A DNA stretch of 64,000 nt. Source: Actinomycetes bacterium. Its GTDB lineage: Bacteria > Actinomycetota > Acidimicrobiia > Acidimicrobiales > Acidimicrobiaceae. Position numbers and translations under genes: made by a program. Of the stretch, positions 15,830 to 23,912 are shown piece by piece (the first letter of the stretch is position 1; each line of letters starts with the position of its first letter). Location of the stretch: the NCBI GenBank assembly GCA_021805205.1, contig JAJZFV010000055.1:81287-145286 (forward strand), in the 5' to 3' direction. The notes beneath the pieces were generated by a model, which did no database searches, was not told the origin of the DNA, and saw nothing but the letters and a program-made list of their open reading frames with translations.

Positions 15830-18343
15830 ATGCGTGGAGAACTTCGAATATACCTAGGTTGCGCCGCAGGCGTCGGCAAAACCTGTGCAATGTTGACCGA
15901 GGGACATAGCCGTCAAAGCAGGGGCACCGACGTCATCGTGGGATACGTTGAAACCCACGACAGGCCAAGGACTAAGGAGTTGGCAGAGGGCCTCGAGATC
16001 GCACCAAGAAAGAGGATAGATTACAAAAACAAAGTAATAGAAGAGATGGATACCGACTACATCATCGATCGAAGGCCCCAAGTGGTCCTCGTAGATGAAT
16101 TGGCCCATGCCAACACTGAGCCTTCAAAAAATCGAAAGCGGTACGAAGACGTACGCATGATCCTCAATGCCGGAATCACCGTCATTAGCACCTTAAACAT
16201 TCAGCACCTAGAGAGTTTAAACGATGTTATCTTCGAGATAACAGGCATTCGCCAAAACGAGACGATTCCAGATGCCTTCGTCCGGTCGGCAAATCAAATT
16301 GAACTCGTTGACATGACCCCTGAAGCGCTAAGAAGAAGAATCGCCCACGGTAACGTTTACCCCATTGGACGCTCAGAGGCGGCCCTCGAGAACTTCTTCA
16401 AAGTCGAAAACCTCTCCGCTTTGCGTGAATTAGCCCTCTTGTGGCTCGCCGACCGCGTCGAGGAGTCATTAACTGCCTTTCGCCAAAGACACTCCCAAAT
16501 AAACACATGGGAGACAAAGGAGCGAATTCTAGTTGCCTTAGGTGGCGTACCTGAGAACGATCTACTCATACGCCGAGCCGCTCGCCTAGCGATGCGCACT
16601 AGGGGAAGTTTGATTGGAGTCCACATCTCAACCCAGGATGGATTCGAAACTCCAAACCTTTCGTCTCTAACCCGACAAAAAGAGCTCATCGATTCTCTTG
16701 GTGGTACGTTCATTGAGATAACTGCCAGTTCCGTGGTGAGTGGAATCATGCAGATCGCTAAAGCCGAGAGCGCAACACAAATAATCCTCGGCGCATCTCG
16801 GAAAAGTCATCTAAGTCGCCTCTTGGGCGACGACGTAATCGACGAAATCGTAAATGCTTCTGGTCACGGAATCGACGTTCACGTCGTCTCGGTGGGAGAT
16901 AGCTCTTCAAAACCAACTTTTGCTAGAATAAAGAGGTTGATACGACGTCAAGCAAATGGATCACGGGCTGGTAGAACAGTTGCACTTATCGCGACTGCGA
17001 TTATATTTCCGCTCGCGACGGTCCTGCTGTCTGCCATAAGACAAAAGCTTGCGCTTTCGGCCATTACGCTGATCTTTCTACTCTTCGTATCAGCTATCGG
17101 ATTTATTGGGGGCTTATTTCCTTCGGTTATAGGTGCTATCGTCGGTTTTCTACTACTCAACTACTACTTCGCTCCACCTATCCATACTTTTACCATTGCC
17201 AATCCCCGCGACCTAATAACTCTCGTTACATTTTTGATTCTGTCGAGCGCATTTGGCTTCTTAATTGACCTTCAGCGAAGAAGGCTTGAGGCGAGCAAGC
17301 AGAACGAAAATAGATCTCGTCTTTACGGACGTGCCGCAGAAATTCTGATTGCATCACCCAACCCGACCCAAGATATGCTCGCCGAACTTAGAAAACAGCT
17401 AAAAAAGAGTTACGCAATTTTGATAAAGGGAGAGTTGGAAAATGGCGAGGAGATCGCGGCTGATGGAAACAGGGTCGAATTTGACCCAAGAGACACATTG
17501 AAGATAAGGCTGCTAAATAACTCACACACCATCGCCCTTTCGCCCGGAGTACTGGAGACCTTCGATATGGAGGTTCTAGCCATTCTTCGGCCCCAGCTTG
17601 AAGCGGCTCTAACTGCAGCAGAACTTGAACGAGAGCGAGAAAAATCTGAGCTGCTACGACAGGGAGATGCCTTTCGCAAGTCAATCCTTGCTGCTGTAAG
17701 CCACGACCTGAGAACACCTCTCTCTGCAATTAGAGCGGCAGCTAGTGGATTGCTAGCAGACGACATTACTCTCGCTCCGGCGATGGAACGAGCCCTCGTC
17801 GAAACAATCGACGACGAGGCAAGAAACCTAACCGAAATTGTATCGAACCTACTCGACCTAACACGAATAAACATGGGTGGTGTATCGGTTATGATCCAGA
17901 AAATATCTCCTGCTGCCCTAATTGACCAAACCCTCCTATCTATGAGGCGAAACTTGGGAAGAATCTCCAATAAAGTTCCCGAAGAGATGCCATTCATGCT
18001 CGCAGATGCCGCCCTCCTCGAGCGAGCGCTGGCAAATGTGATCGAAAATGGGATCGCATTCTCCCCGGCCGATACAACGATCGAAATCAACGCATATACG
18101 ACCCCCACGATGATCTCCATCGAGGTGCGAGATGATGGAGTTGGAATACCCGAGGAGGACTTGGTCAGGATCTTCGAACCGTTTCAACGGGCTGGTGACT
18201 CCACTACACGGCCTGGCATCGGTTTGGGATTAGCGGTGGCTAAGGGTTTTGTTGAAGTTCAGGGTGGAACGCTAGCGGTCAACTCAAAGGTAAATATTGG
18301 AACAACAGTTCGTATTTCGCTGAGACGGGCTGACCTGCAATGA
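15830..18343 (+). CDS. kdpD: Potassium/turgor sensor histidine kinase KdpD
   Basis: An 837-residue sensor kinase with the full KdpD layout. The N-terminal KdpD domain carries the Walker A box GCAAGVGKT and DELAH; a universal-stress-protein-like domain spans about residues 230-365; four membrane helices lie between about 380 and 485; a GAF-like linker follows; and the kinase core has AAVSHDLRTPLSAI (His near 625), an N box (NVIENGIAFS) and G boxes (DDGVGIPEED, GIGLGLAVA). KdpD phosphorylates KdpE when K+ is scarce. It starts four bases after kdpC and overlaps kdpE by ATGA. Confidence 0.97.
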   Translation: MRGELRIYLGCAAGVGKTCAMLTEGHSRQSRGTDVIVGYVETHDRPRTKELAEGLEIAPRKRIDYKNKVIEEMDTDYIIDRRPQVVLVDELAHANTEPSKNRKRYEDVRMILNAGITVISTLNIQHLESLNDVIFEITGIRQNETIPDAFVRSANQIELVDMTPEALRRRIAHGNVYPIGRSEAALENFFKVENLSALRELALLWLADRVEESLTAFRQRHSQINTWETKERILVALGGVPENDLLIRRAARLAMRTRGSLIGVHISTQDGFETPNLSSLTRQKELIDSLGGTFIEITASSVVSGIMQIAKAESATQIILGASRKSHLSRLLGDDVIDEIVNASGHGIDVHVVSVGDSSSKPTFARIKRLIRRQANGSRAGRTVALIATAIIFPLATVLLSAIRQKLALSAITLIFLLFVSAIGFIGGLFPSVIGAIVGFLLLNYYFAPPIHTFTIANPRDLITLVTFLILSSAFGFLIDLQRRRLEASKQNENRSRLYGRAAEILIASPNPTQDMLAELRKQLKKSYAILIKGELENGEEIAADGNRVEFDPRDTLKIRLLNNSHTIALSPGVLETFDMEVLAILRPQLEAALTAAELEREREKSELLRQGDAFRKSILAAVSHDLRTPLSAIRAAASGLLADDITLAPAMERALVETIDDEARNLTEIVSNLLDLTRINMGGVSVMIQKISPAALIDQTLLSMRRNLGRISNKVPEEMPFMLADAALLERALANVIENGIAFSPADTTIEINAYTTPTMISIEVRDDGVGIPEEDLVRIFEPFQRAGDSTTRPGIGLGLAVAKGFVEVQGGTLAVNSKVNIGTTVRISLRRADLQ

Positions 18344-19023
18344 GGATTCTCTTCGTCGAAGACGATATCTCCTTTGCGAACGCTCTCCTAATCTCACTGC
18401 GAGCGAGAGGTTACGAAGTAAAGCACATCGCAAATGGCGCAGGGGCCCTTGCTCAATTCGCAAGTGGACGCTTTGACGTGGTGGTCTTGGACTTAGGACT
18501 TTCCGATATGGACGGCATCGAGGTGCTAAAGGAGATTCGAAAGAAAGACAACACTCCAATCTTGGTGCTCTCAGCGAGAATCGGAGAAGTATCAAAAGTT
18601 GAGGCGCTCGACTTAGGAGCCGACGATTACGTTACCAAGCCATTCGGATTTGGAGAATTCCTAGCTCGGCTCCGCGCTGCACACAGGCGGGGGTCACCGG
18701 GTCCAGCAAACCAAGTTTTGCGAGTTGGAGAGTTCACAATCGATCTCGCGAAAAAGCAGATCACATCGTCAAGTGTTGCCCCTCCAAAATTGACCCCCAC
18801 CGAATGGTCCCTAATGGAAGTATTGGCGCTGGAGAACAACCGAATTATTTCGAGAGAGGAGATCCTAAGACGAGTATGGGGCGAAGCCTTCATGAACGAG
18901 TACGACTACCTTCGTGTCTATATTTCACAGCTAAGGAGAAAGATTGAGCTGAATCCCGCCGATCCCAAATATCTTTTGACCGAGCCCGGCATTGGATATC
19001 GACTCGTTGCCGACTCCCCGTAG
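18340..19023 (+). CDS. kdpE: Response regulator KdpE
   Basis: A 227-residue OmpR/PhoB-type regulator. The receiver domain has the acidic pocket VEDD at residues 6-9, phospho-acceptor Asp51 (VVLDLGLSDMDG) and Lys in DDYVTKPFG. The C-terminal winged helix includes LTPTEWSLMEVLA and the wing RVYISQLRRKIE. It activates the kdp promoter on phosphorylation by KdpD, with which it shares a 4-base overlap. No strong terminator was seen after it. Confidence 0.95.
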   Translation: MRILFVEDDISFANALLISLRARGYEVKHIANGAGALAQFASGRFDVVVLDLGLSDMDGIEVLKEIRKKDNTPILVLSARIGEVSKVEALDLGADDYVTKPFGFGEFLARLRAAHRRGSPGPANQVLRVGEFTIDLAKKQITSSSVAPPKLTPTEWSLMEVLALENNRIISREEILRRVWGEAFMNEYDYLRVYISQLRRKIELNPADPKYLLTEPGIGYRLVADSP

Positions 19024-19593: not shown

Positions 19594-19788
19594 CTAATCC
19601 TCGATTATCTTTATTGCCAACTCTGGACAGAGTTGAACCGCTTTCTTGGCAGCCTCAAGATGACTCTCGCTTAGCTGATTTCTATTTAAAATTGGAAAGT
19701 GCCACTTATCCATCTCGATGTACTCTGCCAATAAGGCAGCACAGGTTCCATGACCCTGGCATCTCGTTGGATCGATCACTATCTTCAT
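19594..19788 (-). CDS. Single-cluster ferredoxin, 3Fe-4S type
   Basis: A 64-residue cytoplasmic iron-sulfur protein. The cluster motif is CQGHGTC (CxxHxxC) plus a distal CP (LCPELA). The middle residue being His instead of Cys marks the group that carries a 3Fe-4S cluster or a His-ligated 4Fe-4S cluster, often partner to cytochrome P450 or flavin oxidoreductases. The start overlaps the stop of the NuoF-like gene (ATGA), so it is the electron carrier of this operon. Confidence 0.92.
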   Translation of the reverse strand: MKIVIDPTRCQGHGTCAALLAEYIEMDKWHFPILNRNQLSESHLEAAKKAVQLCPELAIKIIED

Positions 19789-21152
19789 CTACCACTCGCC
19801 GCCGCTAAATTTCCTTGCGCCTTTTTAGGTAACAGCATCGAATGATGATTTGAAGAAGCAACCGAACACTTACCAGCCTTGTGTAGTTTGATCTCATCTC
19901 CAAATGCCGCCACAGTAGATCTAACGTGGGCGATCACACCATCAGGGTGCTGGCACCCTCCACGCCTTTCAACCAGAGGAATTACAGCCTTCAACTCCGA
20001 AATTCCTCGATCGATATTGGACGAAAGAGCGATCCTCGCAAATGCCGTTGAAATTTCAGGAAGTCCATTTATACATGGGCCACATTGTCCCGCGCTCTGC
20101 TCGGCCAGATAGTCAACTATCGAAGCGGCCTCAACGACTGGACAAGTCTCTTTTGATAGAACGCCCAAGATACCTGCACCAATTGACAACTTCTTGTCGC
20201 CCAGTGTGAAATCGTCGTATGCAACTCTAAGGTCATTTTCGTCCCGTACATTTAGCCAACCTCCGAAGTACCCTCCTACAAGAAGGGCACGAACTGAGTG
20301 CGCTTTAGCCTCTCTCAGGATGTCTCCAATTGCTACGCCCGAGCTAACTTCGTAAAGTCCAGGACGATCAACGGCACCCGAAACAGATACCAGACGACTT
20401 CCGGAGTCAAATCCTGACCTACCAGATCTGTACCAATCTGCACCAAATCGCAAGATCAGCCCCAAGTGAGCGAAGGTTTCGACGTTAGACAAGAGCGTAG
20501 GTTGCCCCTTGACTCCAGAAACCGCCACTCGGTCGATCGAAAATTTAGGAACAGCCGGCCCCTTCTCAATACGACGAATTACAGAGGTCTCTTGGCCAGC
20601 CACGTACGTAGCAGGAGCATCTATCACTGACACTTTGGCCTCGGTAAAGCCCCTCTCCCTACGTTCCCGAAGAGCGGAATTTACGGCCGAGTGGGCCTCT
20701 TTATCCTTGACGTAGATGTAGACGCCCTTAGCTCCCAAAACCTCAGCAACCATGACTAGGCCGTCTATGACGAGGTGTGGGTTGGTCTTCAGCAGTAGTG
20801 AATCTTTTATTGAAAGTGGCTCGGACTCCGCACCATTTGCTACGACGTAGCAACCCTTCTTCCTATCGGCTTCATATACCGCAGCGAGCTTTTTGTAAAA
20901 GGGGAACTTTGCCCCTCCGCGACCAGTCAGATTCGCTACACGTAACGAGTCCGAGACCAATGAGTAAGTAAAGCCGGTTGGAATGCGCCCATAGTTAGAG
21001 ATGTGTTCCGAAAGGCTGAGGCGCATTCGACCCTGAGAGTCGCCAGCAAAAGCAATCTCGGGATTCGAGGTCTTCCAGCTTGCCTCCCACCCAAGCGTAA
21101 GTCGACGAGCACCTGAAGGGGCCATAATCGATGTTGAAGTACTATCAGTCAT
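19785..21152 (-). CDS. NuoF-like NADH/ferredoxin flavoprotein
   Basis: A 455-residue homologue of the NADH-binding subunit of complex I, here without NuoE or NuoG. GRGGAKFPFYKK resembles the glycine-rich NADH/FMN site and NGAESEP matches the FMN-site NADESEP motif with Asp replaced by Gly-Ala. An SLBB segment follows (SGAVDRPGLYEV). The C-terminal 4Fe-4S ligands are in CGPC plus a distal Cys in GGCQHPDG. It probably oxidises NADH or exchanges electrons with the ferredoxin, feeding the heme-b membrane protein encoded upstream. Proteins of this kind are found next to ferric-reductase-like and ApbE genes in Actinobacteria. Confidence 0.85.
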   Translation of the reverse strand: MTDSTSTSIMAPSGARRLTLGWEASWKTSNPEIAFAGDSQGRMRLSLSEHISNYGRIPTGFTYSLVSDSLRVANLTGRGGAKFPFYKKLAAVYEADRKKGCYVVANGAESEPLSIKDSLLLKTNPHLVIDGLVMVAEVLGAKGVYIYVKDKEAHSAVNSALRERRERGFTEAKVSVIDAPATYVAGQETSVIRRIEKGPAVPKFSIDRVAVSGVKGQPTLLSNVETFAHLGLILRFGADWYRSGRSGFDSGSRLVSVSGAVDRPGLYEVSSGVAIGDILREAKAHSVRALLVGGYFGGWLNVRDENDLRVAYDDFTLGDKKLSIGAGILGVLSKETCPVVEAASIVDYLAEQSAGQCGPCINGLPEISTAFARIALSSNIDRGISELKAVIPLVERRGGCQHPDGVIAHVRSTVAAFGDEIKLHKAGKCSVASSNHHSMLLPKKAQGNLAAASGR

Positions 21153-21200
21153 CTTTGGTCAATCCTTACTTTTGTCACTTCAAATAAGCCTTCGAATCTC

Positions 21201-22310
21201 TCAACTTGCCGAGATCGTTCCTGAGAACGAAGATCCAGAGAGAGAAACATTTAGATTTGCCGAAACCGAACCCTTTGGGCCATTCAGCGAGAGCGCCAAG
21301 GAGGAGCCATTTGCTTGGGTAACCGTACCGGTATAGATGTTTGGCGAACTCTTTGTGCCGAGAAATGCAGTACTAGATTCAAGCGATAAGGCGCCCTCTT
21401 GGACCACCCCATTCAATTGAACCTCTACGTAGTCGACTGAGTTAGCGACTGATCCACGAAGCACCAGAACCACCACGCCGCTACTCGTCTGGGTCTGGGT
21501 CATGGTTCCCGAAATTGAGCCATTCGTTATAGGGAGCTCAATTGCGGGAACTGATGCAACTTGATTCGAATTCGAGCTTCCAGATGTCAACCCTGCGGCC
21601 ACAGCAGATGTAGTAGTGGGAAATATTGAGTAACCCTTCGCCGATGACTTAGCCCAACCCGCCTTTAGAGGACCGTTAACCGTCCATCCGAGAAGGACGA
21701 TCGGAAGAAGAACTAACGATGCACCAGCGATAACTCTTTGACTCTTAGCAAGTCCGTACTCGCTGTAAGCGCGATAGAGGCCAGCGCCTCCCAAAACCAG
21801 TACAAATAGGACATAGATACCTTCGACGAGCTTGATGTGAGTATCGCTTCCTGTCCCTAGTGCATGAAAGAGAACCAAACTAACAACTACCCAGCTGAGG
21901 TAGTGAATCTTCTTCCATATTCCGTGGTTGAACTTATGCCTTACAACTGAAGTGGCGACGATTATGAGAAGTAAATCAAAAGATACCGTACCAAGACCAA
22001 CCCAAAGTGGGCGGTACTTCGCCTCAAATGGGATCAGCGTAGCACCTAGTCCCACTGAAACGAAGGGGTCGAGGATCGCCGAAACTATATGAGCCACCAA
22101 GAAGACGAGGGTAGAAATTGAAAGACGCCTATGTAGATCAGGGCCAATAAATTTTCCAACACCCAAAGGGGTACTCTTCGATGCGGTAAGAATCCCTAAG
22201 GTCAAGACAATTCCCAGCAGGACCAAGGCGATTACACCGGTAGCCCGACTGATGTACCACAAAAACTTGGTGTTACTTACGACTGCAGCAAATAGATTCA
22301 CGCTGGTCAA
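21201..22310 (-). CDS. Ferric-reductase-like heme-b membrane protein with outer C-terminal domain
   Basis: A 369-residue protein. The first 220 residues hold about six helices of the ferric reductase-like transmembrane domain; histidines suitable for heme binding occur in HRRLSISTLVFLVAHIVSA and near HYLSWVVVSLVLFHALG. The last 140 residues are Ser/Thr/Gly-rich and repetitive (GSISGTMTQTQ, GSVSANLNVSLSGSSFSG), a beta-type domain that should lie outside the membrane. It should transfer electrons across the membrane from the cytoplasmic NuoF-like protein/ferredoxin. The start overlaps the ApbE stop (ATGA). The terminal acceptor is unknown. Confidence 0.82.
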   Translation of the reverse strand: MTSVNLFAAVVSNTKFLWYISRATGVIALVLLGIVLTLGILTASKSTPLGVGKFIGPDLHRRLSISTLVFLVAHIVSAILDPFVSVGLGATLIPFEAKYRPLWVGLGTVSFDLLLIIVATSVVRHKFNHGIWKKIHYLSWVVVSLVLFHALGTGSDTHIKLVEGIYVLFVLVLGGAGLYRAYSEYGLAKSQRVIAGASLVLLPIVLLGWTVNGPLKAGWAKSSAKGYSIFPTTTSAVAAGLTSGSSNSNQVASVPAIELPITNGSISGTMTQTQTSSGVVVLVLRGSVANSVDYVEVQLNGVVQEGALSLESSTAFLGTKSSPNIYTGTVTQANGSSLALSLNGPKGSVSANLNVSLSGSSFSGTISAS

Positions 22311-23272
22311 TTTGCACCTATCAGATGATCATCACTGGCTTCACTACTTGTGGGCCATCCTGATACTGCCAATCCTCGACCATCGATCGTCCTAACCAGT
22401 GCAGGCGTCCTTCTCCGGATCAACCACGGAACCGCTCCATCTCGAAGTATCAGTGCTGATAACGAATGGTAATTTGCCTCTAACGCACTTACTCCAACCG
22501 CGGTCACGGTAACGATAGAGCTCGTTTCAAGATCTGTCCCAACAACGTGAAGGCGCGCCTTCCCAAAACCGTCAGACCATCTTCTCGTCACCAACGAGGA
22601 GGTAGCCACTCCTCCACCAAAGATTTGAACGCTCCCCCCGGGCGCACTTGGATCGAGCGAAAAATCGTCAGTAATCTTGATCGTCCATCCACTTGAAGGA
22701 ACCGCTCCACTGGTAGCGATGTCGCCGCCCAGGTTAACCAGCACACCCCCACCAAAGTTAGAGGTAAGAGTTCCTGCTATTCGATCAGCGATCCAAGCTT
22801 TACCGAGGCCGCCAAAGTCAAGAAACGCGCCGATCGGTCGAGTCAGTTGTGCTTCGGCCGCGCCCTCTGTTAGATCGACCGAAAACTCCTCAAATCCTAC
22901 GGGACGGAAGTGTTTTTCGACGTTCAACTGGGCAACGAGAGGGTTGGATCGTGCATATAGTTCGATCAACTCGTAACCCGTTGTTGGATCGATCAGTCCA
23001 CCGCTAGAGCTATATTTCTCGAGATATACCGATGTGAGCTGCGCAAAGTCGCAAGAGACGGCGATAGTTCTAATCTGCGAGACGTTGACTTTGGTAATCT
23101 CTGAATCGCTACGGTAGACGCTGAAGATTGAGTCATACCTATCAACCTCCTGTTGAACAGTGGTAGTCGCCGCATCAACCTCGTAGGGGCCCAGACCAAA
23201 TAAGATCACGTGGCACTTTGTTCCCAGGGCTTCAAATTTCGCCTCTGCAAATGTGCTATTGAAAGCGGTCAT
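22307..23272 (-). CDS. apbE: FAD:protein FMN transferase (ApbE family), divergent
   Basis: A 321-residue ApbE-like protein, which normally attaches FMN to a Thr/Ser of extracytoplasmic flavoproteins. Family signatures: SVYRSDSEITKVN, DFGGLGKAWIADR and LVNLGGDIATSG. The later, usually strongly conserved H-x-x-D-P-x-T-G motif reads LHVVGTDLET, keeping His but losing Asp-Pro, and the A-D-A motif is EAN. Activity may therefore be changed. I chose ATG at 23272; it follows the stop of the preceding small gene by one base, indicating coupling. The longer frame to 23449 overlaps that gene and is basic and unlike ApbE. No lipoprotein or Sec signal is evident. Confidence 0.8.
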   Translation of the reverse strand: MTAFNSTFAEAKFEALGTKCHVILFGLGPYEVDAATTTVQQEVDRYDSIFSVYRSDSEITKVNVSQIRTIAVSCDFAQLTSVYLEKYSSSGGLIDPTTGYELIELYARSNPLVAQLNVEKHFRPVGFEEFSVDLTEGAAEAQLTRPIGAFLDFGGLGKAWIADRIAGTLTSNFGGGVLVNLGGDIATSGAVPSSGWTIKITDDFSLDPSAPGGSVQIFGGGVATSSLVTRRWSDGFGKARLHVVGTDLETSSIVTVTAVGVSALEANYHSLSALILRDGAVPWLIRRRTPALVRTIDGRGLAVSGWPTSSEASDDHLIGAN

Positions 23273-23273
23273 C

Positions 23274-23558
23274 TCAAGAACCACCAGTTGCTGTAGCTGG
23301 TGCTGAATTTGCCGGAGCCACGGCTGAATTAGTGCTACCGGGCACTGGTGCGATAGTTGCCGACGTCGAGTTGGCCGATGTTGATCCCGACGATCCCGAC
23401 GTGGCGTTAGTCGAAACACCTGGGTTAATCTTTGCAAGCACCAAGGCAAATATCGCAGTTGCCGCCACAGATACCGCTACAACGCTGCGATGTAATCTGC
23501 TCGATTTCACGAGTGCGATTTCGCCGCTCGACATTCCATTGAAGCTCGCGTTGGCCAT
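23274..23558 (-). CDS. Membrane-anchored Ser/Thr/Ala-rich stub; FMN-binding domain apparently missing
   Basis: A 94-residue protein: short cytoplasmic part, one helix (SVVAVSVAATAIFALVLA), then a low-complexity outer tail of Ser, Thr, Ala, Gly, Asn and Pro that ends abruptly at GGS. ATG at 23558 has an excellent ribosome site (GGAGGA). As I recall them, the equivalent first genes of actinobacterial ferric-reductase/ApbE clusters have the same anchor and linker, then an FMN_bind domain with a flavinylated S-G-A-T motif. No such domain or motif follows here; apbE starts one base later. It may be a deletion derivative. Confidence 0.65.
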   Translation of the reverse strand: MANASFNGMSSGEIALVKSSRLHRSVVAVSVAATAIFALVLAKINPGVSTNATSGSSGSTSANSTSATIAPVPGSTNSAVAPANSAPATATGGS

Positions 23559-23825
23559 CAAAAATCCTCCGGGATATCCCTTGAACAGAAGGTTCAAGTC
23601 GATACTTACTAAACAAAGTTCTAATATCCCCACTTGAGATCAAACTGAATAGATATAAAGCATCACTTTGTCTAACCTGAGAATCAATTGAGACCGGAGA
23701 TAAAACTTCTCATTAGCATGAGCCTCTGAAGCACCTGAGCTGCGGAAAGAGGAAACCAAGACAAATTTTCAAACATGCCGTCAGACTCTCGCCTCCGAGT
23801 CATTAGAATCATGTACTCAGTCCAC

Positions 23826-23912
23826 GTCGGAGTGGCGGAATAGGCAGACGCGCTAGCTTGAGGGGCTAGTGCCCGTAAGGGCGTGGGGGTTCAAGTCCCC
23901 CCTCCGACACCA
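23826..23912 (+). tRNA. tRNA-Leu (anticodon GAG)
   Basis: An 87-base cloverleaf including encoded CCA. Acceptor arms GTCGGAG and CTCCGAC pair perfectly with discriminator A. The anticodon arm CTAGC/GCTAG encloses the loop TTGAGGG, anticodon GAG. A long variable arm (GCCCGTAAGGGC region) and T-arm GGGGG-TTCAAGT-CCCCC mark a class II leucine tRNA reading CUC/CUU. Confidence 0.97.

Follow-up and report, generated by a model that had tools for sequence, protein, structure and literature searches.

An ApbE operon without an FMN-binding domain

ApbE enzymes couple flavin mononucleotide (FMN) to the final residue of a D-x-x-[ST]-G-A-[ST] motif, for which seven residues are sufficient (PMC12052999), and MsrQ-like gene clusters that combine apbE with a NuoF-like gene are known, typically together with an FMN_bind gene (Meheust et al. 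2021, PMC8238504). The operon analyzed here raises the question of what an ApbE modifies when no such gene accompanies it. It runs from position 23558 to 19594 on the minus strand of a 64,000-nucleotide stretch (hereafter the window) of an Actinomycetes bacterium of the family Acidimicrobiaceae (GCA_021805205.1, contig JAJZFV010000055.1, positions 81,287 to 145,286), and its five genes encode a short membrane-anchored protein (the stub), ApbE, a ferric-reductase-like heme-b protein, a NuoF-like protein and a ferredoxin. The stub matched no family in profile searches of Pfam and NCBIfam, and FMN_bind (PF04205) gave no Pfam match in it or in the other four operon proteins. The original prediction explained this by the loss of an FMN-binding domain from the stub, accompanied by decay of ApbE, or else by the use of a new acceptor. 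We consider it probable that the stub itself is the substrate of the operon's ApbE: a carrier without a domain, with FMN predicted on the C-terminal serine of a tethered disordered arm that would feed an outside acceptor. The features on which this proposal rests are as follows.

23274..23558, minus strand: stub, 94 residues, with an N-in anchor, a Ser/Thr/Ala/Pro linker and a TGGS end (open reading frame (ORF), hydrophobicity, conservation)
23277..23288, minus strand: ACT GGT GGT TCT, encoding Thr-Gly-Gly-Ser at the C-terminus of the stub; candidate flavinylation motif, in which Ser94 would be the acceptor (motif conservation)
22307..23272, minus strand: apbE, 321 residues, flavin adenine dinucleotide (FAD):protein FMN transferase family, no signal peptide, Asn267 at the position of the Mg-ligand Asp (Pfam, PDB matches, AlphaFold/Foldseek)

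The stub is a conserved protein

The membrane anchor of the stub lies at about residues 26-42 (23433-23483) and is followed by a linker arm of about 50 residues that is predicted to be disordered. Throughout the genus the protein keeps this size; in seven further genomes it precedes the orthologous apbE, and it is also found in other genera of the family. Between the closest relatives, stub identity is 80-84% as against 60-65% for ApbE, and the ratio of nonsynonymous to synonymous substitution rates (dN/dS) of the stub is 0.02-0.11 between close relatives; synonymous sites of apbE are saturated, so that gene has no corresponding ratio. As judged from these comparisons, the stub is under purifying selection. 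The expectation that it stops where an FMN_bind domain was deleted does not hold, since homologues in related genomes are full-length without FMN_bind and this is the rule in the clade. The seemingly broken stub is probably an intact, complete protein, not a truncated carrier.

A reductase-profile search of contigs from one genome per species yielded 80 loci. They come from Actinomycetota (Acidimicrobiia, Thermoleophilia, Actinoallomurus, Amycolatopsis, Paractinoplanes, Actinospica, Trebonia and others), Chloroflexota, Dormibacterota and single metagenome-assembled genomes labelled Acidobacteriota and Bacillota, and most of the loci encode, immediately 5' of apbE, a protein with a single hydrophobic segment and a Ser/Thr/Pro-rich linker. 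Stubs were chosen without regard to any motif, as hydrophobic ORFs stopping near the apbE start, which gave 64 distinct sequences. The N-terminal flank of the anchor is more positively charged than the C-terminal flank in 57 of them, predicting that the C-terminus lies outside. The linker cannot be aligned across relatives; the conserved part is the C-terminus.

The C-terminus resembles the ApbE acceptor motif

The exact ending [ST]-G-[AG]-[ST] is present in 48 of the 64 stubs (SGGS in 33, TGGS in 7, TGAS in 3, SGAS in 3 and SGGT in 2), and the pattern occurs within the last nine residues in 51, counts drawn from related sequences that are phylogenetically not independent. Linker shuffles gave an expectation of 0.26 exact endings per 64 stubs, with a maximum of 3 in 2000 trials, and inside the linkers the same pattern starts at 15 of 4139 positions (0.36%). 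Position -4 is Ser or Thr in 62/64 stubs and position -1 in 58/64. A wider set of 75 stubs includes 11 extra sequences, partly found by the motif, from loci in which no stub had been taken beside apbE; ten of these directly precede the reductase gene. Clustering the 75 at 60% identity left 58 clusters, 41 of them with the exact ending. Among the short hydrophobic ORFs of loci L053-L132, the ending is carried by 50 of 425, namely 48 stubs beside apbE or the reductase gene, one second anchored protein (L065) and one reductase tail (L074).

TGGS in the window stub is a [ST]GA[ST]-like motif of the kind carried by ApbE substrates, and some orthologues end in a canonical form, such as PPSGATRIS and PPAGATRIS (L040, L045) or PSAATGAS (L060, L061, L064). 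In characterized systems, loss of the motif Asp has a minor effect and terminal tags work best (PMC12052999). The stub ending is predicted to be an ApbE flavinylation motif with the acceptor as its last residue. The original statement that the operon holds no S-G-A-T motif is literally true, but it passes over the degenerate TGGS, which is conserved at this place across several phyla, in many bacteria of soils and acid mines.

In locus L074 (5103-5861), a linker replaces the outer beta domain of the reductase, and the protein ends in PAPIGATGAS, a possible second flavin-bearing tail; the same locus also has an SGGS stub.

A distinct ApbE clade accompanies the stub

The window ApbE matches PF02424 with 110.8 bits and has sequence matches in the PDB; its AlphaFold model (predicted local distance difference test score, pLDDT, 90.9) matches ApbE of Escherichia coli, Salmonella, Treponema and Vibrio, and Listeria FmnB, in Foldseek. 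In a tree of 102 ApbEs, the stub-linked enzymes form one clade (support 97/92), and the FMN_bind-linked ApbEs of the same family form a separate one (100/99). The active-site Lys, Ser and His are each invariant in the stub clade (63/63). At the position of the Mg-ligand Asp, taken from Asp285 of Vibrio ApbE and Asp301 of FmnB, Asn is found in 59 of 63 stub-clade enzymes, including that of the window, Asp in all ten FMN_bind-linked enzymes, and Glu in 24 of the 25 ApbEs of a second class of apbE loci. In these alignments, the Mg-ligand residue tracks substrate class.

The window ApbE lacks the Asp-Pro of the HxxDPxTG motif, as originally noted. This is no sign of decay, because the Asp is also absent from nine of the ten ApbEs that adjoin intact FMN_bind genes, one of them in the same genome. 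Strict covariation of Asp-Pro loss with the TGGS ending was considered and rejected, as locus L039 combines a VSGGS end with an intact DPRT. In locus L085 (4795-7047), ApbE-like and reductase frames form one 750-residue ORF, beside a separate partial ApbE frame, a possible frameshift or fusion.

Two genuine FMN_bind genes were found in the host genome, on other contigs and each adjoining its own ApbE. One of them, on contig 40 (L049, 5541-6113), encodes an anchor, a Ser/Thr linker and an FMN_bind domain, the very design that the original prediction had given for related actinobacterial clusters. The stub operon is also present in three relatives (G003, G004 and G005; 89-95% complete), in which no FMN_bind gene was detected, although the incomplete assemblies could hide one; their ApbEs should therefore have another substrate. 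The second class of apbE loci comprises a paralogue in the host genome (L051, 4908-6981, contig 5) and loci L012-L031. The anchored proteins beside apbE in this class show no FMN_bind signature, several of them contain long stretches that are charged or coil-like, and the ends found in the class read STGASRALG, TTGASGLG, TSGASGAYR and, as a variant, ATTRSSQIG.

Electron-transfer partners and proposed mechanism

The gene order, minus-strand orientation, coordinates and coupling given in the original prediction agree with the ORFs and the sequence. The stub ORF ends at 23274 and the apbE ATG at 23272 lies one base after the stub stop; apbE and the reductase gene overlap by 4 bases (TTGA), as do nuoF and the ferredoxin gene, and a gap of 48 bases separates the reductase gene from nuoF. 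The remaining features of the operon are the following.

23566..23570, minus strand: GGAGG ribosome-binding site of the stub (sequence reading)
21201..22310, minus strand: MsrQ/ferric-reductase-like membrane protein, 369 residues, TTG start overlapping the apbE stop (Pfam PF01794, alignments, model)
21207..21530, minus strand: residues 261-368 of the reductase, a C-terminal beta domain of eight strands with a predicted outside location (AlphaFold model)
19785..21152, minus strand: NuoF-like protein, 455 residues, with FMN and Fe-S domains (GRGGAKFP; SAGQCGPC...GGC) (Pfam, NCBIfam)
19594..19788, minus strand: 4Fe-4S ferredoxin, 64 residues, overlapping nuoF (Pfam Fer4_15)

The reductase matches Ferric_reduct (PF01794) with 33 bits against a cut-off of 28, and its His60, His74, His136 and His149 are invariant in 27 homologues, fitting two b hemes. 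The model of the whole protein (mean pLDDT 76.7) had no PDB match at E <= 0.001. The NuoF-like protein matches Complex1_51K with 114 bits and NADH_4Fe-4S (PF10589) with 45.2 bits (cut-off 23.5), and the ferredoxin matches Fer4_15 with 49.7 bits. A ferredoxin gene is present in 52/64 loci, and the NuoF-like protein, ferredoxin and reductase co-occur in 50/64. The motif, its position, the pairing with an ApbE clade, the intact Lys, Ser and His of that enzyme, the heme-type histidines and the operon itself are conserved. In the NuoF-like protein (window 19785-21152, minus strand), the usual CxxCxxC Fe-S motif reads SAGQCGPC, with its first Cys missing, and the same string is found in 24 relatives.

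From this gene content we infer the following route. ApbE would transfer FMN from FAD onto the hydroxyl of the last serine of the stub, and the FMN on its flexible tether would replace a folded FMN_bind domain as a swinging-arm flavin. Electrons would pass from reduced nicotinamide adenine dinucleotide (phosphate), NAD(P)H, to the NuoF-like protein, the ferredoxin, the inner heme and then the outer heme, thereby crossing the membrane. The FMN of the arm would take them up near the outer beta domain of the reductase and hand them on outside the cell, for instance to Fe(III), a candidate acceptor suggested by gene content and organism type. The host genome (2.6 Mb, 89% complete) belongs to a genus that includes Acidithrix ferrooxidans, which is listed with Ferrithrix thermotolerans among ferric-iron reducers (PMC8790237).

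Upstream of the operon, and divergent from it, lies a transfer RNA gene, tRNA-Leu (gag), at 23826-23912 (plus strand). A KdpD-like sensor kinase and a response regulator, named from the sequence by eye and overlapping by 4 bases, lie at 15830-19023 (plus strand) and are oriented toward the operon end.

Counter-evidence and alternative explanations

Several observations weigh against the stub as an ApbE substrate. In the window motif the consensus Asp is missing, Gly takes the place of Ala and Ser that of Thr; no Asp three residues before the [ST]GA[ST] core is conserved among the stubs, and Thr-to-Ser and Ala changes lowered labelling in the ApbEs tested (PMC12052999). The motif is absent from some stubs (L067, L102, L130), and CHSTPxxPC ends replace it in three Dormibacterota. 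The stub clade has Asn at the Mg-ligand position, where Ala greatly reduced or abolished FmnB activity (PMC8906456). ApbE, whose domain starts at residue 8, has no signal peptide, yet the stub charges predict a tail outside; in principle, a disordered tail with no domain might receive its flavin inside the cell and cross the membrane afterwards. Finally, no stub was found in the four Ferrithrix-type loci in which it was looked for (L042, L044, L046, L047), although apbE, the reductase, the NuoF-like protein and the ferredoxin are present there. The ApbEs of these four loci are nested inside the stub clade, and the absence is apparently a later loss. As to the three Dormibacterota stubs (L119, L127, L129), which occupy the same place, their ends read CHSTPTRPC or CHSTPSHPC and possibly mark another cofactor or a metal site.

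The enzyme and the sidedness of its substrate admit two other readings. The stub-clade ApbE may no longer be a transferase and may instead hold FAD or act as an FAD pyrophosphatase, with the stub tail docking unmodified in its active site. The prevalent Asn and the FmnB result favor this, but the catalytic His, Ser and Lys are invariant, docking alone would not need the Ser/Thr acceptor retained at the stub end, and the Asp has lost its contact with the metal in E. coli Ftp with adenosine diphosphate, ADP (PMC4767422); we regard this reading as unlikely. We see slightly less chance that the flavin-tipped tail is cytosolic and links NuoF/ferredoxin to the inner heme as an electron shuttle: the missing signal peptide and the cytosolic electron donors are consistent with it, but the anchor charges predict the opposite orientation, and the FMN_bind-linked ApbEs of the same genomes also begin directly with the domain despite their anchored carriers.

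Three further explanations concern the stub and its ending. Deletion of an FMN_bind carrier with decay of ApbE, for which the operon without FMN_bind and the ApbE without Asp-Pro had spoken, is very improbable given a stub that is genus-wide and present in several phyla, its low dN/dS, the invariant catalytic residues and the loss of Asp-Pro from FMN_bind-linked enzymes as well. The idea of a new acceptor is supported, most likely in the form of the stub tail; the outer beta domain of the reductase, which had been named as an example, has very little in its favor. That domain is predicted outside and ends near Ser and Gly residues (SGTISAS), but the end carries no conserved motif (SGTFSA, SGQLQA and TGQVSF elsewhere) and the domain is absent from many relatives. 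Least probable of all is that Gly-Gly-Ser is a side effect of the ribosome-binding site of apbE and of start-codon overlap. The stub gene end does overlap the apbE start region in many loci; this origin is unlikely, however, because both the codons (GGA, GGC, GGT, GGG; TCN, AGT, ACG) and the spacing between motif and apbE start are variable. All Gly codons are used, with GGC commonest at the second Gly, many Ser/Thr codons occur at -4, Ala variants use GCN codons, and the motif is kept in stubs whose apbE lies elsewhere and whose next gene is the reductase.

Comparison with known flavinylated systems

The operon resembles the MsrQ-like flavinylated NuoF subset, with its two-heme PF01794 protein, apbE and a NuoF-like protein carrying PF10589, but differs from it in that the carrier, here and in related loci, has no FMN_bind domain (PMC8238504). 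With the L049 carrier of the same genome the stub shares an anchor, a Ser/Thr-rich linker, an adjacent apbE and a motif (TGATYTS in L049), whereas that carrier has a folded FMN_bind domain and its ApbE belongs to the other clade and keeps the Mg-ligand Asp. A parallel for attachment through a short terminal motif without a flavin-binding domain is the engineered flavin-tag (Tong et al. 2021, reviewed in PMC12052999); the tag is artificial and of the canonical DxxSGAT type, unlike the stub motif, which is natural, degenerate and located in an electron-transfer operon. In flavinylated FMN_red and Flavodoxin_4 proteins the motif likewise lies outside FMN_bind, in FMN_red within an unstructured C-terminal extension, but that extension lies close to a folded site in the same protein that binds flavin (PMC11334425). 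DUF2271 and DUF3570 are also ApbE substrates without FMN_bind, encoded beside orphan apbE genes, but both fold into domains, 135 and about 420 residues long (PMC8238504). The literature searched, which included few subscription journals, yielded no account of a flavin carrier that lacks a domain or bears its motif at the C-terminus.

Implications

Genomes with apbE and no recognised substrate exist, and further substrates await identification (PMC8238504). Family searches miss carriers such as the stub because these have no domain. A wider generalization seems somewhat favored, with less assurance than the reading of the window operon itself: a dedicated Asn-type ApbE clade may flavinylate the last residue of a tethered disordered tail and so couple NAD(P)H to extracytosolic acceptors across Actinomycetota, Chloroflexota and Dormibacterota. 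The four-residue C-terminal motif on a tethered disordered arm is a concrete and simply testable candidate substrate class. If this proposal is correct, a flavin could act as a redox cofactor on a tether with no domain to bind it, substrate class would be mirrored in the active-site residues of ApbE, and a plausible outward electron route would open for Acidithrix and other iron-cycling acidophiles.

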